From NCBI GenBank assembly GCA_914767715.1, contig OU612071.1, positions 22,751,681 to 22,815,680 on the forward strand: a stretch of DNA of 64,000 bases, read 5' to 3'. Shown here piece after piece: positions 4,692-61,400 of this stretch; positions within the stretch are counted from its first letter, which is position 1; each line of letters starts with the position of its first letter. A program made the translations under genes and the position numbers. The notes under the pieces are model-generated. The model did no database searches, was not told where the DNA came from, and saw nothing but the letters and a program-made list of their open reading frames with translations. Origin of the DNA: Membranipora membranacea (taxonomy: Eukaryota; Bryozoa; Gymnolaemata; Cheilostomatida; Membraniporidae).

Positions 4692-7600
4692 GCACAATTT
4701 AGTAACGCTTCTCTATCAATAAACACATCCCTAATATTTTATTTGTAGTTAGAGTGCTGGAATATATAACTTTAGAGTCAGAGCAGGCTCCTCTTGATGT
4801 AATTACTATATGTAACAATATGTAATGTAATATGAATATGAAATATGTATGTAATTTTAATTAAACCAGTCTATGAATTAAACCTATTTTGGGTTGATTT
4901 TGATCAGATTGGAATGCCTGCCTAGCCTACAACTGCGTCGCCATCTCTTTTCCTGATGACGAAAGCTTCATAATGTAAAACAGGAGAGAACTCAAGACGA
5001 TATGCCATCTCAAATAGAATGATGAGTAGCTGGGTAGCTATCGCACCGAACAAATCCTGAAAATGAAGAAAAGAAGTGTAATGTTAAGTAGTGTTGTCCT
5101 TTTTTCTATCAGACAGAAAATAAACCACTGCAATAAAAATTCATTCACTATTCGGCCTTGCTTCAGTCAAGGACTAAAAGAGTTCTTTTACACCTTGCTC
5201 CAGTTACGCCTCGCCTTGTTAGTATAGCAAGATGGATACTGTTTGAGAATCTTTGGCAAGTCTCTGATAGAGTTCTGTGGCCAATTAACAATGCCTAATA
5301 TACCTGCAGCTAAATTTTGAAACGATGTTTTATCAGAGACTATGATTTAATGTCACAGCTGTCAAACTGTGGTCAAGCTGTGGTCTCTGCAGTAAACTCT
5401 TTGGTACCACAAGAACAGATGGGATAACTATGTGAACAGTTGAAAGGCTTACAGATTTATTGATTTATTTGCATTCCACTGTTGAAATACTGTTATTTGG
5501 CTAAATATGAGTCAGTGGCATTATCAACCACATTCTAAGTCTGAGCGTACAGTAACCTTCAATATCTCAATTCACTTGCATACAGAATCATTGCAACGCT
5601 ACAACTAAGTGGATAGAGCAGTGTCGCTGCGCCGTGAGGAATGCTCTGAATAAGTAAGGAAACTTTCTAGCTTGTACATTCCAGTCTAGAGCAATCGTAT
5701 GTTTCTGGTGATAACACAAATTCAAACACAAGTAGTTTGATCAGACCTTAGTCTACGAATAACCTGTGTATCCAAGTCTGATGGGCATAGCTTGATTTTG
5801 GTTGCAAAACCCTAGAAATATAATGCACCATGGGCATATCATCCCTGGCTACAAATCTGTCTATTCCTACCCCATTACTTAAGATAACAAGCACAAGAAG
5901 TAATTGCAAATTGTTGAGGGATCAATACTAGCTACTAGCTCGAGTTCAGCTAGCAAGGAGGCATAGGCATCTGGAGTTACAAACATGTATGATTTGTCAA
6001 TGTCCAGTATCAATACCCCCTCCCCCAAATGGGGTGACTTAATGTTAGCAAGTACTAAATTAGTGTCGCTCTATATAAATTCAAGATGCTGAGTAAATGT
6101 TAGCTAGCTTTGAATTTAGCTGTGTGCAATAAGGTGAGCTTTTGCTCCGGCGATTACTCTTCAAGGATATAAAATATTGATGCAATTGTTTTTCAGTGTC
6201 TAAAGAAGTTGGCATTCTTTGGACCAACATTACCATGTAATCACAGAAAAACCCCGTACCCTTAATTATGCTGATTTTGTCTAAACAAAACTTTTGCCAT
6301 GAGTTGTTATGAAAGCATCAAATTTGTCATCTTTGCTACAGGACTTTCCATATCTGAGAATGGAATGTTGAGGAGGTAGCATCACATAACCGATACCGCG
6401 GTAGTTATTGAGTACACTTTACCATGGGATGTTTACTACACCGGTCCCACCTATTGTTGTGTGACAGTTTATTGGTCTACTAAATAAGGCCAACAAACAC
6501 AATTAACACAATCCCGCTGAGACAAAAAAATCCTTCTGCTGTGCGCTTAGCCTAGTGTCTTCCCATAACGTATGACATATAAAACACAAAAAATGGCATG
6601 TTACCAATACTGGGATCGAAACGTTGCGTAATGTAAATCTTTCACTAGATGCTTTTAGCTGTGTAAGCTTTTTAGGGAATTCTTTTTTGTTTGAGAGATT
6701 GAATTTATGAGAAAGACAACTATGAGACATAATGTGCAGAGCGACCATTTATCATGGCCATGACCAACCAGCCCAGTGGCCAGAAAATCTCTGCAATAAT
6801 CTCATTATCCACAACACAATAATATTTGACACGAAAACCCTGATTAATTGCAGAAGGCAATACAACTGATTTAAAAAAGATTGGGTTATGCCTCGGTGTC
6901 CTTAGATAGGTTAAGGTACAACCTGGATTGATGTGATACTTACTTTATAGGCATGAAGAGCATGATTGCTCAACCACAGTTACTTTCTCAATCGAGGCCT
7001 CCAGAAGCTAGTTACTCGGCATCTGATCTTCTCGAACATTTGAGGGGACAAGAAATATTCTGGTGTCTGCTATTGCCTTCATAAGAGGGCAGTAGTATAC
7101 TGACAAATAATCCTTGAATTATGCTGAATATCCCATGTTAGGCAGTTTGTAATTGGTCTGTTGAAGATAGAATCTGTGCTCATTCATAGTTTCCCTGACA
7201 TTCAATATCCTCCAGCAGTGAACTGTATACTATATCTTATCATTCTAAAGATAGAAGAAATTAAGAAAGGCAATTAGCAACAAGCCACAAAACATCCACC
7301 TAACCATCTCCACCTCCATCTAACTAGGTGAGGTGACTCAATGTAAGCTAGCTGGATATACTTCCTAGCTGTGGTGGAAGTCTATATAAATTAATTTTGG
7401 TGAGTACATTTGCTTGAAATAGCAAATCCCCTACCAATAGTGCAATCCTCTAGGGTATGAAGTTTATCAAACACATATTTCCGATGGAACACAAGACACC
7501 ATCAGATTAGCTTTTTTTGGTTTTGCCCGGTTGTTTTTGTCATTCCCAGTCGTTATTCAATATGTTTTAGTGTTGATGGTAGGGAGGCTTACATTGAGAA

Positions 7601-12135: not shown

Positions 12136-14557
12136 ATATATTTTAGTGAATCTGACAAAGCTAAGAAAGCAGTTCTCTACTTTGATGCTATCTTAAGTCC
12201 TGGTGTAAATCATTTAATTTAAGTCACAGTGTCTCTATCATATTGTTTGGTATTGTTTTTGGAAGTTCCCAGTCTAATTTAACGTGCGTAAGCAACCTTT
12301 GACATTCACTAAGTTCCCATTCATTGTGTTCACATTGACTTGAGGAGCTATGGAATCATGGCAAAAGCATTGGTTCAATTTAGTTGTGTATTGGTTTGTG
12401 TTCCTTCGTTAGATTAGGGCCGAGCGCAGTGGATAGCATCAAATACTGGTCCAATTCCCTTTGTCCGACGCCCCCCCCCCCCTTCCAAATTGTAATCAAC
12501 AAAGAGATCTGAGTCATGGAAATAAAAGAGAGGGAGTAATCAGTGCTTCCAGAGAGTAAGAATTATATTGAATTACAAAGATTAAGAAACAAACAACTCT
12601 ATCAAATGCAATGAAATTTGGTGTCAGGGACGAAGTGTCATGGAGGAAGCAGTCATTTGTTATTATATTCTATTATTAAATCAAATTAAAATTCAAGGGC
12701 TTATCAAACCAATTGAAAATGATTACATAAAATGTCACAAAAATATCTATTCTTGTGACTTTTAGCAACGCCAGGATACAATGATCGACTCCATTTCAGC
12801 TTCAAATATCTATTTTAGATGACACTGCACTATTTTTGCCAAGGTCAACCACTTAAAATTCATCATTGGCTCTCAGTTGTTCTCTAAAGGAGTGGTTGAG
12901 GATGTAAGGGCTCCCATGTGTGACTATGGGTACTACAATAGCTGCACAATGACGATATCCTGTAGAGGTTGTGTTCTGTTTTGGTATTTTTGCTGAATAT
13001 ATTTTAGTGAATTTGACAAAGCTAAGAAATCAGTTCTCTACTTTGATGCTATCAAAGGCCCTGGTGTAAATCATTTAATTTAAGTCACAGTGTCGCTATC
13101 ATATTGTTTGGTATTGTTTTGAAGTTCTCAGTCTAATTTAACGTGCGTCAGCAACCTTTGACGTTCACTAAGTTCCCATTCATTGTGTTCACATTGACTT
13201 GAGGAGCTATGGAATCATGGCAAAAGCATTGGTTCAATTTAGTTGTGAATTGGTTTGTGTTCCTTCGTTAGATTAGGGCCGAGCGCAGTGGATAGCATCA
13301 AAGACTGGTCCAATTCCCTTTGTCCGACGCCCCCCCCCCCCCCTTCTAAATTGTAATCAACAAAGAGATCTGAGTCATGGAAATAAAAGAGAGGGAGTCA
13401 TCAGTGATTCCAGAGAGTAAGAATTATATTGAATTACAAAGATTAAGAAACAAACAACTCTATCAAATGCAATGAAATTTGGCGTCAGGGACGAAGTGTC
13501 ATGGAAGAAGCAGTCATTTGTTATTATATTATATTATTAAATCAAATTAAAATTCAAGGGCTAATCAAACCAATTGAAAATGATTACATAAAATGTCACA
13601 AAAATATCTATTCTTGTGACTTTTATCAACGCCAGGATACAATGATCGACTCCATTTCAGCTTCAAATATCTATTTTAGGTGACACTGCACTATTTTTGC
13701 CAAGGTCAACCACTTAAAATTCATCATTGGCTCTCAGTTGTTCTCTAAAGGAGTGGTTGAGGATGTAAGGGCTCCCATGTGTGACTATGGGTACTACAAT
13801 AGCTGCACAATGACGATATCCTGTAGAGGTCGTGTTCTGGTTTGGTCTTTTTGCTGAATATATTTTAGTGAATTTGATTAAAGCTAAGAAAGCAGTTCTC
13901 TACTCTGATGCTATCAAAGGTCCTGGTGTAAATCATTTAATTTAAGTCACAGTGTCGCTATCATATTGTTTGGTATTGTTTTGAAGTTCTCAGTCTAATT
14001 TAATGTGCGTCAGCAACCTTTGACGTTCACTAAGTTCCCATTCATTGTGTTCACATTGACTTGAGGAGCTATGTAATCATGGCAAAAGCATTGGTTCAAT
14101 TTAGTTGTGTTCCTTTGTTAGATTAGGGCCGAGCACAGTGGATAGCATCAAAGACTGGTTCATCAAATGCAATGAAATTTGGTGTCAGGGACGAAGTGTC
14201 ATGAAAGAAGCATTCATCTTTTATTATATTCTATTATTAGATCAAATTAAAATTCAAGGGCTTATCAAACCAATTGAAAATGATTACATAAAATGTCACA
14301 AAAATATCTATTCTTGTGACTTTTATCAACGCCAGGATACAATGATCGACGCTTTTTCAGCTTCAAATATCTATGTTAGATGACACTGCGCTATTTTTGC
14401 CAAGGTCACTCACTTAAAATTCATCATTGGATCTCAGTTGTTCTTTAAAGGAGTGGTTGAGGATGTAAAGGCTCCCATGTGTGACTATGGGTACTACAAT
14501 AGCTGCACAATGACGATATCCTGTAGAGGTTGTGTCCTGGTTTGGTCATTTTGCTGA
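12136..14557. repeat. Tandem triplication of an 861-bp unit
   Basis: Three head-to-tail copies begin at ATATATTTTAGTGAAT: 12136-12996, 12997-13857 and 13858-14557. Copies 1 and 2 are near-identical and both carry a 12-14 nt poly-C run (12471 and 13330). Copy 3 lacks about 160 bp around that run and a few bases elsewhere. Each unit has a short open frame (...YYILLLDQIKIQGLIKP...), but it is interrupted in copy 1 and matches no family I know. Looks like a local segmental duplication. Confidence 0.9.
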
Positions 14558-14591
14558 AATCGGGCCAAGTTTTTACCAAAGACGTAACCAA

Positions 14592-19600: not shown

Positions 19601-22600
19601 TGAAAACAACAGAGACATCTGACAATACTCAGGGGACACCATCGTTCTTGGATAATATGAAGCTTGTCCTGAGAAAATCTGCAGATATCAAGCTACTGCG
19701 TAATCCAGTCTATTTAATATTTTGCATGAATTCGGCATCTCTTCGATTTTGCACTGTAGCACCGATCGTTTTGTTACCAGCAAGAGCATCAGACTTTGGT
19801 CTGTCATCAGAGAGTGGAGCTCTCCTGGTTTCAATAGTAGGGATAAGTAGCATAGTAGGGCGCTTTTGTTACGAATTGACAGCAGATACAGCTGCTGTGA
19901 GGCCATATCGTCTTTATCTCTATGTATCTACATTCTTAGGAGCCGGTCTCATCTCAATGGTGAACTTCGGTGAGAAGTTTTATCATCAGGCTATCTATGC
20001 AGGAAGCTTTGGGTTCTTCTTTGGTAAGTCATTGATTAGGATAATTAAATAGTATCTGCTTCTATCTGGTTATGCTTCAATATCAGGACTTAGAAAATGG
20101 TCGCCTGGTACAGCAGACAGGTAGACGATAGACTTTTACCTTTCTCAGATTACATGTGCACTAACTATGGAGTAAACATAGAGTAGCTGGAATGGCAAAG
20201 TACTGAGTGAAAACCCTTGAGCAAAATACTCACTTATATTAATTATGATTGTTATGTTCATCCATCATCATTTACAGGAGCACCATTCAGTTTGAGATAT
20301 ATGGTATTAGCTGACCTGATTGGGGTAGAAAATCTCATCACCGGATCTGGAATGCTTTCTCTCACAGATACAGTGTTTATATTACTTGGTCCCAGTGTGG
20401 GAGGTAAGTGATTCTTGTTTATGAGATTGGTAACTTTACTGTAGGAAGTAAATGGAGCTCTCTTTGTATTAGTAGCAGCATATAAGATATTTTGGCATTG
20501 ACTGACAGCAGATCTGTAGACTGAAGTGCCACTTGTCTCTACCTGTGTGTGACGAATCCGCTACATTTCGCCAATGTACATTTTGCCAATGCTATGTTTT
20601 GCTAATCACAAATCGCCAATCACATTTCGCCAAAGACATTTCGCCAATCTTATTTTGCCAATCACATTTCGCCAAAGATGTTTTGCCAATCTTATTTTGC
20701 CAATCACATTTTGCCAAATACATTTTGCCAATCTCATTTTGCCAGTCACATTTTGCCAAAGACATTTTGCCAATTTCATTTTGCCAATCTCATTTTGCCA
20801 ATCATATTTTGCCAAAGATATTTTGTCAATCATAAATTGCCAATAACATTTCGTCATCGCCAATTGCCAATTAAGGCGTACAAATATTCGTTCCAAAAAG
20901 GCTTCATGATGATGGTAAGGAATGCGTACCGGGTCAACTGTCGGGATGGGACGAATCCAATTCATTGTTCTCTCCTCATGGTTCTGGTTCTACTATCCTC
21001 ATCCCTTTTTGCTGTGACCGTTACCATTACCGATATCAGCTCCTATATTTTATCCAAAAAATTCAGATTTCAGACTAGATCGTTGACCGCAAATCTGGTT
21101 TTGTATTTGCTATCATCAAAAATGTGTAATGTCAGATGGTAAGCCCATTGAATTCCATATCTGGAATAGCATCATTAGCTTTCTTTTGCCAAACAAAGAA
21201 CAGCAAAAATAGCCAGTCCCTAATAGCATTTTAGAAAAGCCCAAATCACTGACGTTAAAGGCATTTTATCACTGTTTGCAGTTTTGTAGACAAGTGAATT
21301 TCCCAGGCTATATTTTTCATGCTAGTAGGGACAGCCAATCAGATTAATGTCAGAGCAGTCCCTGTGTTGAGTGTTTCAACTGGATGATGTCATGATACTA
21401 CTTCCATTCCATGAGAAGAATTTAATTCAGTGGGTAAGCCATATAGTTTAGTAATGGCATCATATCTATTCTGGAAATTACTCTTTATGTTTATTGTGCT
21501 GCTCGTTCATACATCAATTAGGAACCTATTGAAATAATTTCAATAATATGTTGAATGCACACATTTTTGTTTTAATACTTTATTGGAAGAATTTTCATTC
21601 TCAAAGAATGTTTTACAATATAAGCCTTGAAAAGAAAAAAAATTAAATAGTAGATTGACAGAAAAGATATTATCATGTTATCTGTGAAAAATAATGTTGG
21701 GAAGAATGAATTTTGAATAAACTGACAGCCGTGGTGGCAACCAAGGTTGAAGGTAAGCTGTTTTAACAGGACGCTATAATGTTGTTTAAAAGATTATTTG
21801 TTGACATAACATTGACATAACATAAAGTCAATGGTTGCAGGCCAGAGGTCAAGCCTACAGAGGAAAGGAAAATCTATCATTTTTTTCCTGCGACAATTAA
21901 TTGTATTTAAAATAAATGCACTAAAATAGTGAAATAAAATAAAGCAGCGGCATGGTAGGATAAGTCCAGGAATAGTGAGGCGGCCATGTCAGGACAATGA
22001 AGCCTACTTTCCACAAGGCTAGCCCAGACACGCAGCCTACTTGGCAAGATTCGAACCACACCCCGCAAACTCTCACACAAGGCAAAAGGAGCCGCCCCCT
22101 CCTCCCCCAGTTGGTATGAATTCAACAGGTTTGCACCAAGTGGCTGTTACGGCCGGGGTTTTGATTTCTAACTCGCCATTATTATTAAAAGGTAACAATT
22201 TACAATTTTCAATGGGCACAATTTGATACACAGAAAAGAAAGAGGTCACATAGCTATGTGGGCGGATTTTTGAAGTGAATAGGTGTCATTTAGATGACAA
22301 TATGCGACATGTGTTATACAATTTGATCATCGTATGAATATCATGATATGGTTGTACACAACGCATTAAAAATAGGATGTACTTCAATTTCCGACTAACT
22401 TCTAAATTATTTGATTTCAAAACTATGCTCTCATCAAGGTGAATGCCGAGAAATGATGTGCTATTTTTTGTCATTAAAACCTGATTACCAAGTTTTATAT
22501 GGTACTGTTCAGGATCTAAAATTTGTTTGTTTTTGTATAGTTTAAAATCAATTCATTGCTCAAGCACCATCGTTTAATTTTATGACCTTTTTTTTATTTT

Positions 22601-24587
22601 TGTGATCATTGGAAGAAAGATATATTTGTGTCGTCGGCAAAGAGAATATATTTAAACATTGGCGCGGGTATAACCAAATCACTAATTAATATTAAATATA
22701 AAATTGGACCTAATACGGATCCCTGATCTGGATTCCTGTATCGACCTATTTTATTGTACTGAAATGATCGTTGATTTTGACGAATTGCTCTCCGTTTTCT
22801 AAATAAGATTTCAGCAAATTACATACATCATTTATAAAATTACAAAAAGGCAATCTTTTAATTAAAATATCATGGTTGATGGTGTCAAAGCCTTGCTGAA
22901 GTCTAAAAAATATTCCTTGCGTAGTTTCACTGTCATTAAAACTGTCACACAGGTGCTCCATTACAATTATTATCTTTAATCTGACCATTGATCTTCACAA
23001 TGAGTGTTAAACCTTTAAAAGTCTCGTCATATAAAAAGTGACAACTAAAAAAGATCGTGTTTTAAAAATTTGGTAAAAGAATCTTAAAAAGAATTTCTTT
23101 TTTGAGATTTATACGTATATTATGAATTTGTAGAGATTATTATTATCATAAAATTATTGGTAAATTAATATTGGTGATTATATCAGTACCACAATACATA
23201 GATAGCCAGCACCTTCATGTTGCTGATGTTTTCCAGGTGCAACATTCGGCCACCATTTTGCCTTAACCTATGCCTGCAAATGTTTTAAGCTCGAACTCTT
23301 TGGATGGACAATCTCAGCAAGAATTGCATGAACTAACCGGCAACAGTCAAGGATGGATGTGAATAGGAAAGATATTTCTTTTCATATATTATAGACCTCT
23401 GATGTTCAACCATTGACATTATATTATATTATATTATATCAGTGTGTGCTTATAACATATTATTATAATTATTCCTGTAGGTGCTTAATTAATGTATGAC
23501 TGAACAGCAGAATAAACGTTCATAGTCTCTCCCCCCCCCCCCCGCCCTGAATAGATATGGTGTCTAATACCAAACTATATTGCTTACTATCTGTCATTAA
23601 ACTTTAGATCACAGCAAATACAAATCCAGTTTTGCGGCCGACAATCTAGTCTGAAATCGGAATTTTTTGGAAAAAATACGGGTGCTGATATCGGTAATTG
23701 TAACGGTCACAGCAAAAAGGGATCAGGATAGTAAAACCAGAACCATGAAGAGGGAACAATCAATAAGTGCTGATTGCGCGTGCTCAAAAACAATTGGAGT
23801 CGTCCCATACCGACAGTTGACCCGGTACGCATTCCTTACCATCATCATGAAGCATTTATGGAATGAATATTTCTACGCCTTAATTGGCAATTGGGGTTGA
23901 CGAAATGTTATTGGCAATTTATGATCGGCAAAATGAGATTGACAAACTACCTTTGGCAAAATGAGATTGGCAAAATGAGATTGGCAAAACATCTTTGGCA
24001 AAATGTGATTGGCAAAATAAAATTGGCAAAACATCTTTGGCGAAATGTGATTGGCAAAATATGACTGGCGAAATGTCTTTGGCAAAATGTGATTGGCAAA
24101 ATAAAATTGGCAAAACATCTTTGGCGAAATGTGATTGGCAAAATAAGACTGGCGAAATATCTTTGGCAAAGTATGATTGGCGAAATGTGATTGGCAAAAC
24201 ATTGCATTGGCGAAATGTACATTGGCGAAATGTCTGCCACCCGTGTGTGACTATGCTGCACATTGACTCTCACTGTTTTTCTATGGCTTGAGGTCTGTCA
24301 GTCTGTCAGTCAAGCAAACCATTAGTATGTGTTAAATGTGATTGAATTCAAAGGATTTAGGGATATAATCAATTTATGTTACAGCATGGCTGTATGAAGT
24401 GTCTGGTAGCTATGATGTAACATATGCTGTATTTGGATCTTCCTTCATTTTCGGTGGAGTAGTGCTTCTTCTCATTCCTCTTGTCAGGAAATTTCGTTGG
24501 TGTTCTAAGCATGATATTTTTGAGGAAGGAGTAGATGCAGCCTATGCTAAGCCTAGTGGAAATATCAACAAAGCTTACGAAGAATGA
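16602..24587 (+). CDS. Monocarboxylate-transporter-like protein (SLC16 / MCT family, MFS), six exons
   Basis: Exons 16602-16731, 17257-17424, 18549-18692, 19259-20023, 20278-20403 and 24385-24587 all have GT/AG junctions and a shared phase (each splits a codon after its first base). Joined, they give 511 aa and a stop, the usual MCT length. The MCT signature DGGYGW spans the exon 1/2 junction (about residues 42-47), and the second signature YFRQKRGLA opens TM5 (about residue 167). Twelve hydrophobic segments can be placed: six before and six after a hydrophilic loop at about 230-280. TM8 keeps a GRF arginine (about residue 349), the place where MCTs carry a substrate-linked Arg. The family moves lactate, pyruvate and other monocarboxylates across the plasma membrane; the substrate here is not determinable. 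The N-tail is acidic with a repeated E-N-A-[ED]-Q-E pattern. A start further upstream cannot be excluded. Intron 5 hosts the foldback element at 20554-24242; no exon is damaged. Confidence 0.92.
20563..20866 (+). repeat. Left-arm 14-bp tandem array
   Basis: About 20 units of CATTTYGCCAATNN, alternating between CATTTTGCCAAT and CATTTCGCCAAAGA types. The array has no stops in several frames, so it creates spurious ORFs of 90-150 aa. Confidence 0.92.
22286..22990 (-). pseudogene. LINE reverse-transcriptase relic inside the foldback element
   Basis: The minus strand reads ...GFDTINHDILIKRL... followed by KSYLENGEQFVKI (22746-22988), the block of non-LTR reverse transcriptases around the [KG]AFDT[IV][ND]H motif, and further down FLGIHLDES (22286-22474), from the region after the catalytic domain. 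The catalytic YADD box is not readable and frames shift, so it is a decayed 5'-truncated copy. The clade cannot be fixed. Confidence 0.8.
23893..24233 (-). repeat. Right-arm 14-bp tandem array
   Basis: Inverted counterpart of the left array, read on the + strand as GGCAAAATGTGATT and GGCAAAACATCTTT units. It has a few more units than the left arm, as expected for arrays that change copy number independently. Confidence 0.92.
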
Positions 24588-25149: not shown

Positions 25150-25620
25150 AAACAGTATTTACGGCAGTTTACACGGTAGGCTGGCACTCTGTATCTACCA
25201 GATGGGAGTTACTCTAGCGTTATGACAGTGTCTTTGCCCGAAGCGAACATTCTCAGGCATTTAGTTTTGAAGAATTTATCGAATATATCGTCTATGGTTG
25301 TAACTTCAAGCCTGCCTTTGCTTAGTCTACGTTCTGTGTTGATGAGGTGATTGTACTGGTTCTTAATATCAGATGAGAGGTGTCCGTATATAATACATAG
25401 GTGATATTGTAGGACACTCTCGAGAAATGAGGTGTATGCCAGCTTGATGGTAGTGTTGTCTTGACATTCATAAAGGCTAGCTGCTTCATGATGAATAGTC
25501 GTTTGTTAGCTTTGCTGATGATGTTTTTGGGGTTCGTATTGAAGTTAAGCTTATGATTGAGTGTGGTGCCAAGATATTTGTATTCATCTACTCGTTCGAT
25601 GGCGGAGTTGTTGATCATGA
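25150..25620 (-). pseudogene. LINE reverse-transcriptase C-terminal relic
   Basis: The minus strand reads VDEYKYLGTTLNHKLNF and then KANKRLFIMKQL, the conserved block downstream of the catalytic site in CR1/L2/jockey-like LINEs. The frame is lost further on. A paralogous relic lies at 50270-50640 (+), where VESYKYL and KLFIIKKIANL can be read. Confidence 0.8.
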
Positions 25621-28600
25621 TGGGTGGAGGGTCAGGATCATCGCGTAGATTACAGAAAACAACAACTTATAAGCTACCATCTCATGTTGTTGACTAAAGG
25701 TCATCAACTGTTTTCACCACTTGATGTTAATGTGGAAAATTCTTTGTTTCCATGGCAACAGAAGCACAACACATTTTCTATACACAGGCAGAGGAGAGGT
25801 GTATATTTGCTTATGAAACCTAGACAGAAAAAGCGCATTTTAATAGGGTTTGGAATTATGTTCCATACGAGAACATATTGCATAAAGCATGACTTGATGA
25901 TGCACTGCTGCTGCTGCTGCTGTTATAGTAAATCATCGGAGTCCTCCCAAGACATTCATGTGTCTATTATGTTGTCGGATCGAGAAAGATCACGACAGTT
26001 CACTGCTGGCAGAGTTCATATGAGATTACCTTCTATTACTGAATGCAGTTTTTCGGTAGTTTGATGATTTTATTACTGAACTACACCCTGGGGCAAATGC
26101 CCCAGGCAACTGAGAAATTGCAACGCCAAGTTGTAACTGTCATACGTAACTCCCGATCGTAACTCGCAATTGTAACTGATTCTTCAGAGCAAAAACCACT
26201 GTTCTTTATACTGACCTGTATAAATAGGTCGTAAAAATAGAAACGGGTGGGATTATACGTCATTATTTTGATGGCCAACCTCGCATTTAGATGGTAATTA
26301 AATGTGCAAAAAATGGAAGTAAATGCGGAAGAGTATAATAATTAATCAGATTAGGACCATGGCAACCATGACAGTGCAATATACAACGCCTAACTTCATG
26401 CAGAGTCATGCACCTAGGCGTGTCACATACAGTGTATGTGACACGCCTAGGTGTATGTGACAATGTGATTATCAATCTGATCAAGCTATCAAACAGGATT
26501 CTAGAGTATGTTTTTGGCAATTGTTTTTTAAATCCACTCTAGTTTTATTTAATATCAAATAGAGTCAATAGCTGCATTATACAATTAAAACCTTCCACAT
26601 TCAATTATTCAATTATTTAGGAGTTACCTAGCCATGAAGAAAACAACTTGATTTTGGGGTCTACCCTTACCTTTGGAGCAATTGGAAACAAACTGGATGA
26701 AAAAGAGAGGAATTTGCTAATTTCAAGTTATTAAAACATGTTAAAGTTATGCACTATCAAAAAAATTTCTAATTTTCGTGAAAATCTTGCAAAGCAGATT
26801 TCTGAATGAAAATTTTTCATTCTTCATATAACATTACCAGTCAAGCGATGCGAAGCATACATCAATCAAATATCCACAATCTATCTGCACAGCCTAGGCC
26901 TACTCCTACTCCAACTGATAGGACCAAAGTTCACTATCCCCTCTTCAAGCAGCTCGGCAGGAGGGTGCAACTCTAAACATAGGCAAATTGGATCATGCAT
27001 GACCAAGGGCCACAAGCGGCTGATCACAGTCACCGGTCTACAATCGATCATCATTTGAAGGTATGCATTGAGATAACCATAACTGACATCGACTAGCAAT
27101 TGCTTTATGATATAACCCCTTTTGTCGGCTGGAAGTTGAAATTGAGGCTCAAAAAGAGTTTATTTTAATTGTTATGAATAAATATTCTATTTTCAAGCAG
27201 AATGCTTGCTTACAAAAGACTTCGAATTAGAAGCCTGAGTGTATGCTAGTTCGCAATGCATTTATGATATCACTGGGAAGGTAAATATCGTATTTACGAA
27301 TCGTCAATTGTCCTGCTTGGTGATGGAGTCTTAGATAAAACCTATAGCCAGGCAAGATCATGTAGATAGATCATGTTACATGTCTGATTTAATTAAAGTT
27401 TCGGTAAAACTTCTTCACACAAACAAGTTACTTATTGGGAAAAATTTGTTTGTCATTTCACAGTTATTTGCATAAAATCAAATAATATCATAAATATCAT
27501 CTTAATTTTCCCGTCCATCAGTTTGTTTTGTTTCATTGCGGTTAGTTACCATTGTAAACATACCAAGTGTGATTTTCTACCAGCTGCTACCATTATCGCA
27601 TGCTTGATTTAACAGCGAGTAACTAAAACCACAATTCTGTCTGATTACTAATTGTCTCCGTCGTTAAATACTCAATGAAAAGCAGTGAAACCCATTACCC
27701 TCCAAACAAGATATTCTATCATTGAAAATGGCACATTCAAAGAATTTGAAGCGTGAAATCTTTTTGGATCACATCTTATCTTCCAAACTTTGGTCCATCA
27801 AGTTAGCATGTCGCTGGAGCAGCTCCGCAAAATGGTTAGAAAACTCAGTTGAATGGAATATTCCCCATTGAGGCCAATTAGTTCAGTTAGACAAACTTGT
27901 CATTTTGTACTTTGAAGCGCAGGGCCAGCAAAGTTTCAGCACAAGAAAAGATTTGTAAATAACATGAAGAGACTCTTAATAGCATTATTGGCAGGAATTC
28001 TGGACTATAAATTCACCGAGACATAAAAGTATGTATATAGCGTTATGCTGAGATGCTACTGACATAAGATTAATATATTAGAGCACAGCTATTTCATACC
28101 AGTGTAGAAAACACTGCACATATTGAGCCAGAGAAACTTTATCAGGCGAGAGAGACAACGATGCTAGGGCGAGCTGCTATCATCATCAGACTCAATTCTC
28201 CAGATATTATCCTACGATGAAAGATGATCACTCACATCTTCTAACGCTTGTTTGTAAATTCAATCATGACGATACCATTGATTTCATGTCCACCAGTAAT
28301 AGATTGTTACCAGCTCCATTTCAACGCTAAGTGATTCCGAAAACTTGTTAACTGGCAAGGGCTCTTCAAACGTTCAAACGCTCAAAGATGGGTAGATCAC
28401 AGGAAAGATGTGTACTGGAACGGTGGCAAAAAATCTGATTAATCTTGATTATTTTCTGTTTTATGACATATGGGATGCCTGCCTTCCATTGCAGTCAATA
28501 TGTTTGGTTTTGTCAAATGAAAAGCTAAAGAAAAAATAGTTTAAATCTTAGTTTCATGATGTGCTAGAGATAAAATTTTACAGGAGAGCAACAAATGTAC

Positions 28601-29832: not shown

Positions 29833-32430
29833 ATGGAGATAATAGGTTTAATGATCACCCTGGTACTAGTCTGTACTGGGCTTACTGTTGCAAAATATGA
29901 AGCAGCTTCGTTTGAGATTCTTATGGTCGACAACACACCTCAAACATCATAGCTCACATCATCTGGAATCAAATGCGCACTAGCTTGCCATGTCAGATCA
30001 GAATGCCAGGGTACGGTTGCCCAAAACCACCAATTTTTCCCACATAATATCCACAGTGCCTGTAATTATGGCGGTTTTGGTCGACCAAAACCGCCACTGC
30101 AGCTGCAAATCATACTTGTTTTCTTTTTTAGTGGCGGCGTTGGTCGATCAAAACCGCCACTGTAGTTGCAAATCATACTTGTTTTCTTTTTAGTGGCGGT
30201 TTTGGTCGACCAAAGCCGCCACTGTAGCTGCAAATCATACTTGTTTTCATTTGAGCGGCGGTTTTGGTCGACCAAAACTGCCAATAAAGAATGTTTATTT
30301 CATACAGGTGAGCACAACTCCGACCATAAATAGACTGATCATGTGATATATACTTTTCGTAAGTTCTTCAAGACCGGAAACCTTGCCAGTGCTAGGTACT
30401 AGTGACTAGTGCTTTGCAATTTAGCTTGTAATAGTTGGGAAATAGAAACATGGCTAGTGCTTATGGTTTCTATGATCGATGCCAATTATTTGACTGTTAT
30501 TACATGGGATCAGCCAACCACAGCTATGGATGTGGTCATCCAGCATCTCATCATTCATGTAAGTCAACTGCAGTACAAGTTTCACAATATTATTATAGTT
30601 ATGCTAAACTAGTAAGTATGTTATTATGTATGTATGATCAAGGAGTAACAGGTCATCCTTGGTAGTCACTAGTTTCTAGCACTGGGAATATGTCCGGTCT
30701 TGAGGAAATTCCGAAGAGTATATGTCAAATGATCAGTTTATTTATGGTGGGAGTTGTGCTCACCTGTCTGAAATACGAATTCTTTATTGGCGGTTTTGGT
30801 CGACAAAAAGCAAGTATGATTTGCAGCTACAGTGGCGGTTTTGGTCGACCGAAACCACCACAAAAAAGAAAACACGTATGATTGGCAGCTAAAATGGCGG
30901 TTTTGGTCGGCCAAAACCGCCATTATTACAGGCACTGGGGATATTTTGTGGGAAAAGTTGGTGGTTTTGGTCAACCGTAGCCAGGGATACAACTATTCAT
31001 CACAGATAGAGGATACAGATGTTAATTGTTTCATGTATGAGTGGCTGATGCCTGGCAGAGGAGATGTCAAAGTTTTTGCTACTAGACCAACTGTAATCAC
31101 ATCACATCCTCTGATATTTGGTTAGCATGTCCAACTTTCTTTCCCTTCACGTTGAAACAAAATCATTATGAGTGATTGTGATCCTTTTCTCTATGGAAGA
31201 CATAAAAGACAGCTTTGACTAGTTTTATCGTTTGTGATATTTTTGTTAGTCATTCTATTCAAACAACATAACACAGATATACATGATATATGAACTGTTT
31301 TAGCTTTAGAGGATACTGCAGAGCTATCGACTACAGGTACAGTAGGTAATCTTCATGCATCAAATGCAATAGACGGGATATATGATGGCAGCTCAAAGTC
31401 TATTGCCCACAGTCAGATAGAGCCTTCCCCTTGGCTGCAGATCAACCTAGATTAACCAGCTGTGGTGAGAGGAGTAAAGATCTGGAATCGTGTCGCTGGT
31501 AGCAACCCGGGTATGCAGTAGCTCATTGGATTTGTCAGAAATTTTCCTGCGTTTAACGCTACAGTTCACAGTTAACGCATTGTCTAATAATAGTGCCAAA
31601 TTTGAGATTCATTGCGCCTAATTTCGTTGAAACAGCAAAATTTAGCTCTTAAGTGTTAGGGCAGTATATTTTCACACAGGGATGAAATATTTGGATCTTT
31701 TTCCTTTTTTCAATGCAACATCCATCTTTTACTATCTCTTGAGATAAGGTAATAAAGTTTAATTTTGATAAAATCTTTGAGTCTTGCTAATCTCTTCTAA
31801 AACTTGAAAGTTTGTGCTGCAGACTTTAACTTGTATTATCCTAGTCTTTAGTGATTGTTTTATTGCATTACTTTATTTTTACAATATGACATATCACATC
31901 AAAGGGTGGCTTTGGTTAGTAGAATCATACCACTGTTCAGCACCAACGACTAGTGAAGAGCTAGAGCGCTAATCAATTACACTCGCTCCCCATCTTTAAT
32001 AAAGAATATTCTACGCTGTGATTAGCATGCTCACTTTTTACCACTCACAGTCAAATAATTGCCCCGCCCCTACCATCCCCACATAATGTGTACAAATATT
32101 TCGTTGCTTGCATGGCTCAATTCTTGGTTCCCTGATTAGTTGGCTATGGGCAAGTGCATAACCACCTGTGACCAATACTTTCATCAATTCTTTGTCTCAG
32201 TTATTGGACTGAGACTTCAGAATGTGTTAATAACAGTTGCTATGTCATTTGATGATGAGGGATTCGGAGAGCGCCTTACTGACTCAGCATGCTCATATTC
32301 TCCAGGAGTTCAGCCCCCTGTAGGGATACACCTGTGTTATAAAGCTATGGGTGGTAAATGTGTGAGAATCACAGCTGCTAGTGTAAACGATTATCTTAAT
32401 TTGTGGGAGATCGAGATTCATGTGTATTAA
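29833..32430 (+). pseudogene. PAN/apple plus fucolectin-like (FTP) lectin pseudogene
   Basis: Reading starts at ATG 29833 with a signal peptide (MEIIGLMITLVLVCTGLTVA). It continues as a PAN-like module (CALACHVRSECQGYNYSS, NCFMYEW) to a donor at 31120. Exon 31310-31510 gives the start of a fucolectin-tachylectin-4-pentraxin domain (LHASNAIDG, PWLQINLD, VKIWNRV). The last exon 32201-32430 finishes it (ACSYSPG, KCVRITA, LWEIEIHVY) and ends in TAA. All junctions are GT/AG with consistent phase. The family binds fucose-type glycans in secreted immune or egg lectins. Defects: TAG at 29950-29952, TAA at 31453-31455 where the domain normally continues, and a 968-bp foldback insertion (30012-30979) after codon CAG in the PAN exon. 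Removing the insertion and one duplication copy restores reading across the site, so the gene was whole at that point when hit. Stops could be strain-specific or sequencing errors, but three lesions favour a pseudogene. Confidence 0.85.
30012..30979. mobile_element. Foldback element (968 bp) built of palindromes, inserted in the PAN exon
   Basis: The ends TACGGTTG(C/A)CCAAAACC are inverted at both sides, flanked by an exact 7-bp duplication GCCAGGG (30005-30011 and 30980-30986). The arms run about 30012-30410 and 30663-30979. Each arm holds a tandem array of a ~62-bp unit, each unit containing a 26-bp palindrome made of GGCGGTTTTGGTC and its complement. Units start at 30070, 30133, 30195 and 30257 on the left and at 30789, 30834 and 30896 on the right. 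The inner 250 bp has a 76-codon open frame (30435-30665), rich in Cys and Tyr, that I do not recognise. No transposase. Unrelated in sequence to the foldback at 20.5-24.2 kb. Confidence 0.9.
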
Positions 32431-59862: not shown

Positions 59863-61400
59863 ATGTGGATAAAAGACGCAGTACAGGATATGATTTTGAT
59901 TCTGTGGTTGCAGACCAAACTATTTGAAATGGAAAGAAGGTATCACTTGAGATACAGACCTTGTAGGAATACAAGCCAGCAAGCACTCAAATATCGAGCC
60001 CACCTCCTCTGTCTTCCTTCTTTACGCACACTGCAACAAATGCTCCAAAGTTTCCAAACGGCACCTGGATTCCATGAGCAGGTATTTAGCACACTCAGAA
60101 TCTAGATGGAGGCAATGAGCGATTTAGATATGTACTGCACTGTGGTGTGTGACGAGATTACCATCAGGGCTGACATCTGTTACAAAAGCAAAACAATGCA
60201 GTCGAGGACAAAATATGTAGCAAACAGTGTGCTAGTTTTCACAAACCATGGCCTCAGAAGTAAATGGAAACAATCAGCTGGATATATTCTAACATCTGGA
60301 ATTATAAGCGCTACCATACTTCACGACCTGACGCATGAATGCATAAAGAAACTCAGAGATGCTGGATTGGTTCCAAAACCCCTAATATGTGAACAGGGTC
60401 CTAACAATAAAAAATTTCTCAAACATGTCTCTCCAAACTCGCTAGTTTTCTCCAACAATTACTCAGACACAATATATCTAATATATGATCCGCCACATTT
60501 TATTAAAAAGGTTCGGAACAATTTCAAAAGGAACACGCTGTCTATGGGGGGAGATGACATTCGCTGGGATCATTTGGTGCAGTTTTTTGAGTAAGTCAAG
60601 TCACAGTTGCTGAGGTTGGCACTGAGAGTGACAAAAAAAAACTTATCTTCATTCCAGCATTCAAGGAAATGAGAGTAAGTCACGCAACACAAGTGATGAG
60701 TCACACCGTTGCTGCCAGTATGTCAAGACTGGTAGCATTGAGAAAACTACCAGTGCAGCACCTACCATTACCTTTATATCATCTTTCAATGACTCGTTTG
60801 AAATCCTCAACAGCCATCAAATCAACAGTGGCAAACCCACAAACAACGCATTCACTAACACCATGGAACAAAAACAGTTCATGAAGGAGGCGATGAAGAA
60901 GCTCTCTTCTATCAACAGCAGTAGTCACCGCTCTCCCGTGTATTGGGCGATGGAAGATTTGTTATGTCCAGTTTATAGCATTATTTAGGCAGGCCACCAC
61001 TATGCATATGCTAAGCAAAAGCTACACCAGCAATTGCTCGGATGCGGGAGACATATCATTGTTAGAGCTCAGTAATATAACTCGCACTAACAAACCTGCC
61101 GATTCACTTCACTCTTCCTCTACATCAGCAAAACTCTGCCAGAGGATATTGCCACTCTGGCTAACCTGCCGGCCAACAACATATCTGTAGATGTCGCATG
61201 GTATGTGCTAGCACGTCATATTACTGAGCGGTGTGAGCACTGCAGTTTCATTTGTATTACCTTCCCCCCACAATCCGACTTACGAATGAGGTTATTCGGC
61301 TACAATCCTATGGTGAGAACTGTCACCTCACATACACAGTCGGAGTATATTTTATTGACATACTCCTGTGCTAAAACCACCTTTTCTGCAGAGTTTGCCT
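59863..61400 (+). pseudogene. P-superfamily (P element / THAP9-like) transposase relic
   Basis: The first frame reads RRYHLRYRPC and LPSLRTLQQM, then a TAG at 60103-60105, then a long frame (60106-60594) with VVCDEITIRADICY, GLRSKWKQSAGY, a CEQGPNN block and DPPHFIKKVRNN. These are the order and motifs of the RNase-H-like catalytic and GTP-binding parts of P transposases. A donor at 60591 (GTAAGT) and acceptor ending at 60657 may mark an old 67-nt intron. After it MRVSHATQVMSHTVAASM and, after a frameshift, TFISSFNDSFEILNS continue the family pattern. The N-terminal THAP domain is not seen. Stop and frameshifts make it non-functional. I did not find the 31-bp inverted ends. Confidence 0.85.

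Follow-up and report, generated by a model that had tools for sequence, protein, structure and literature searches.

The window analysed here (the whole 64,000-nucleotide stretch) contains an SLC16-like gene, one intron of which is occupied by a long foldback element (Table 1). The gene is recognized by an upstream 275-aa ORF that matches MFS_1 (Pfam) and, in the PDB, monocarboxylate transporter 1 (E 3e-11); in a protein search with the SLC16-like exon, one protein among 1,566 candidates reached E 1e-10 or better (63% identical). Joining the exon end at 20403 to the exon start at 24385 gives the in-frame sequence LGPSVGAWLYEVSGSYDVTYAVFG, indicating that the element sits in an intron across which the frame is preserved. 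The location in an SLC16 intron, which had been proposed from the letters of the DNA before any search (the sequence-only reading), is thereby borne out, with the gene described as SLC16-like. Before the insertion the intron would have measured about 283 bp. No Rfam match at gathering score and no tRNA (ARAGORN) was found in the 64-kb window.

Table 1. Features of the foldback element and its host intron (positions in the window)
Feature	Position	Strand	Remarks
Host intron of SLC16-like gene	20404..24384	+	3,981 bp; flanking exons join in frame
Left target site duplication	20545..20553		9 bp, GTGTGTGAC
Whole foldback element	20554..24242		3,689 bp; exact ends from flanking direct repeats
Left tip	20554..20562	+	GAATCCGCT; outside inverted repeat
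Left array of 14-bp units	20563..20856	+	20.6 copies (TRF); 42-bp higher-order period
Left inner arm, single copy	20857..21145	+	90.1% identical to right arm (ungapped columns)
Insert, left arm only	21146..21432		287 bp; 8-bp duplication GGTAAGCC at 21138-21145 and 21433-21440
Left inner arm, continued	21441..21563	+	78.7% identical to 23443-23580 (ungapped columns)
Stretch in left arm only	21564..21801		238 bp; inserted here, or deleted from right arm
Innermost left arm found	21802..21883	+	76.9% identical to 23362-23441 (ungapped columns)
Reverse-transcriptase relic of non-LTR retrotransposon	22286..22994	-	pieces in three frames
Right inner arm	23362..23897	-	
Right array of 14-bp units	23898..24233	-	23.4 copies (TRF); 42-bp higher-order period
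Right tip	24234..24242	-	GGGTGGCAG, read inward
Right target site duplication	24243..24251		9 bp, GTGTGTGAC

The limits of the element are set by exact direct repeats of 9 bp on either side, and both the limits and the shared 9-bp flank that the sequence-only reading had given hold to the base. A third copy of this 9-mer occurs in the window at 60145. Agreement of this kind is rare by chance: identical 9-mers were found in 15 of 500,000 random pairs drawn from the window, and when two 40-bp stretches of the window were drawn at random, 140 of 20,000 draws had at least 9 exact bases in common. Read inward, the first 9 bp at either end match each other at just 2 of 9 positions; past these unlike tips both ends go on as ACATTTCGCCAATGTACATTT, and the inverted repeat starts inward of the tips.

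Each arm begins with an array of 14-bp units. The unit ATTTYGCCAAT, allowing at most one mismatch, matches the window at 41 sites where 5.5 would be expected (none of 100 shuffles reached 41); 37 of these sites lie in the arms (all 17 of the left arm on the plus strand, all 20 of the right arm on the minus strand) and four elsewhere. Units three apart are more alike (mean 0.846, 33 pairs) than neighbours (0.747, 37 pairs), in a comparison in which the unit cutter missed one unit of the left arm, which affected a few of the pairs. The two arrays are 91.5% identical to one another in a gapped alignment (269 of 294 ungapped columns, with 42 gap columns left out). Taken as single-stranded DNA, the first 156 bases fold worse than their shuffles (198 of 200 fold at least as well). 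When a single translated frame of the right array was searched against proteins, none of 164 candidates reached E 1e-3. The build first proposed is confirmed, namely inverted copies that each consist of a 14-bp array and a single-copy inner part.

The arms are longer than the approximately 600 bp initially assigned to them, because they run inward to 21883 and 23362: the aligned extents are 20563-21883 on the left, with two interruptions, and 23362-24233 on the right. The innermost pair (21802-21883 and 23362-23441) aligns with a score of 63, as compared with a highest score of 39 in 1,000 shuffles. The first interruption of the left arm, the 287-bp insert, has near-inverted tips (CATTGAATT and CACTGAATT, 8 of 9 alike), and we infer that it is a nested hAT-like MITE. 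Arm identity falls at this insert. The first inner part has 255 identical columns out of 283 ungapped ones (32 left out), and inward of the MITE the counts are 96 of 122 (17 left out) and then 60 of 78 (6 left out); for the single-copy columns the difference (255/283 versus 156/200) gives a Fisher p of 4e-4, a value to be read with the breakpoint having been picked after the alignment was viewed and with columns treated as independent.

The loop between the arms (21884-23361) holds the relic of a reverse transcriptase. Two of its pieces give weak RVT_1 matches, in order, of 20.2 and 16.3 bits (Pfam), one of which also matches DUF357 under the cut-off; when the pieces are placed in series and the breaks marked by X, the score rises to 35.6 bits, above the cut-off of 29.6. 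The LINE relic of the sequence-only reading is real, although all that is seen of it is reverse-transcriptase sequence broken over three frames. A Pfam scan of the six interior ORFs of at least 70 aa, all on the minus strand, returned no transposase family and none of MULE type. The two sides of the loop have six runs of 9 or 10 bases in common, some of them simple AT sequence, where shuffles of one side average 2.3; because 21 of 500 shuffles that kept base composition only also reach six, the excess is slight. A 9-bp direct repeat, GTGAATAGG, brackets the relic (22275-22283 and 23359-23367). We considered it as a possible duplication of the relic itself and did not accept it; it may equally be chance. 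Outside the element, ORFs at 25209-25666 on the minus strand have no Pfam match but carry the motif VDEYKYLGTTLN, which resembles the C-terminal portion of LINE reverse transcriptases.

Just one copy of the element is known. A DNA pattern of two units was found in 27 loci, two of them records among viral contigs and 25 among genome contigs. At 25 of these loci there are at most two units (at most one mismatch) per 200 bp; of the remaining two, one (L011) holds three and the other (L010) holds four. The latter, on a contig titled Methanosarcinaceae archaeon, has at 5102-5155 a 14-bp repeat, TGGAATTTTGCCAA, of 3.9 copies, with the core ATTTTGCCAA in common; we take it as chance or convergence rather than a second copy (3.9 copies, 601 bases read). 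In loci L001 and L002, covered by a tandem-repeat search over their whole length and by reading 601 bases of each, no array of the unit was found. The contig collections are viral and prokaryotic, so that the absence of a second copy there says little. A full-text literature search with unit sequence strings returned 12 papers with a single occurrence each which, judged by their titles, are not about transposons, and a term search of PMC13359780 found nothing on foldback builds.

Two other repeats in the window are recorded here in their own right. A second foldback-like element of 968 bp (30012-30979) lies between 7-bp direct repeats GCCAGGG (30005-30986), has the tips TACGGTTG at both ends, and carries in its left arm a 62-bp array (30069-30283) with the palindrome TGGCGGTTTTGGTCGACCAAAACCGCCA, two such palindromes standing 62 bp apart in the right arm; its 7-bp duplication has the length reported for Galileo in the excerpt of PMC2775673. 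A tandem repeat at 12136-14558 has a period of about 861 bp and nearly three copies, which are 94-96% alike in the longer matches.

The observation as a whole is thus real, with corrections to arm length and ends: long inverted arms with internal tandem repeats, and a target site duplication at the ends, place the element in the structural group of foldback elements. The Drosophila FB and sea-urchin TU elements, to which the sequence-only reading had likened it, also have short-unit arrays in long inverted arms, with other unit sequences, and TU duplications are 8 bp. The foldback build, the 9-bp duplication, the SLC16-like intron and the LINE relic of that reading stand; as nearest parallel, FB and TU give way to Tm1, the closest published anatomy that we have seen, which shares more, down to the unlike tips. 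As described in the available parts of PMC3169594, Tm1 of Meloidogyne (Mutator/Foldback, Phantom subclass) resembles our element in its commonly 9-bp duplications, its nested insertions, its unlike tips outside the inverted repeat (7 bp there, 9 bp here) and its arrays of units of 13-15 bp, most often 14 bp, that differ in number between arms; its copies are mostly non-autonomous, and one autonomous form encodes a Phantom-type MULE transposase. The likeness does not extend to sequence. The right tip shares 5 of 7 bases with one Tm1 tip, a match to be expected by chance in 5% of cases when four comparisons are made, and the left tip shares 1 of 7 with the other; the 14-bp unit agrees with that of Tm1 at 8 of 14, a value reached by 362 of 500 shuffles and so no more alike than shuffles; motif B (GGA) of Tm1, as given in the text available, does not occur inside the tips, and the best match to motif D in the arms covers 9 of 12 positions. 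In size, too, the two differ, Tm1 forms ranging, when nested inserts are not counted, from less than 0.5 kb to 2.6 kb (PMC3169594, in the part available), as compared with 3.7 kb here. The element is built like Tm1, from which membership in the Tm1 lineage does not follow. Tetris of Drosophila virilis has, in the accessible text of PMC4079207, a foldback build, arms of tandem repeats with an inner domain, duplications of 8-10 bp and no conserved ORF, as here, whereas its units of about 220 bp and its external flanking domain of up to 866 bp are unlike those of our element.

We consider it probable that the locus holds a foldback DNA transposon of Mutator (MULE) type that is old, non-autonomous and dependent for its movement on a transposase supplied in trans from another locus. 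Its superfamily is assigned from anatomy alone, that is, from duplication length and build, because no transposase was seen in the element; against such an assignment, PMC3169594 notes that elements of foldback build need not be related to one another. MULEs have duplications of 8-11 bp, a range that includes the 9 bp found here, and TIRs commonly of hundreds of bp (PMC6446971, in the portion available). On this assignment, the transposase would have bound array units of both arms, cleaved at either tip and inserted the element into the intron at a target cut with a 9-bp stagger, and the arms may later have acted as mutual conversion partners. Arm-to-arm conversion, if halted by the nested insert, would account for an outer part of about 580 bp that is 90-91% alike and an inner part that is 77-79% alike; the drop could instead reflect inner arms that are older or less constrained.

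Within Mutator, and as a sub-case of the MULE reading, a Rehavkus or NOF-type origin in place of a Phantom-like lineage is possible, if rather unlikely. Rehavkus (used as the Mutator outgroup; Table 1 of PMC6446971, as far as that text was available) is like our element in having 9-bp duplications, long TIRs (26-400 bp) and a minisatellite, but its minisatellite is reported in front of the 3' TIR alone, whereas here arrays form both arms, and no transposase, PHD-finger or other, was seen in the element for comparison.

Mobilization by a transposase of another class, be it of the P superfamily (like that of Galileo), of hAT or of some other type, with the 9-bp repeat as its product, appears unlikely, although no transposase was seen in the element by which to decide. 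hAT duplications are 8 bp, which counts against a hAT-type mobilization. Galileo (P superfamily) has long, internally repetitive arms, as here, and pairs a foldback build with a P-type transposase, but its duplications are 7 bp (consensus GTAGTAC), not 9, so that a Galileo-type origin is disfavoured, insofar as the excerpts of PMC2775673 and PMC3169594 describe it.

A bolder proposal, which we regard as doubtful, joins the 9-bp duplications, the pair of unlike tips (of which one, read inward, has GGGTRG) and the 14-bp array phased in 42 bp into the signature of a Phantom-like foldback lineage common to nematodes and the host, in which the ends would play different parts and the spacing of the array would follow from the geometry with which the transposase binds, since 42 bp corresponds to four turns of B-DNA. 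Least probable is that no transposon is present and that an intronic satellite array underwent local inverted duplication, as the lack of a second copy of array and arms elsewhere in the 64-kb window might suggest, since the exact 9-bp repeats at the very ends (with the chance rate for 9-mer pairs given above) and a build that equals that of published elements both speak against it.

Read as a Mutator-type foldback transposon, the element is ordinary in kind, a known build of transposon, and it leaves the picture of the foldback kind unchanged. As an addition to the foldback elements it has clear limits and unlike tips, the latter a trait termed unusual in the available part of PMC3169594, and it offers a case for testing whether a nested insert halts conversion between arms.
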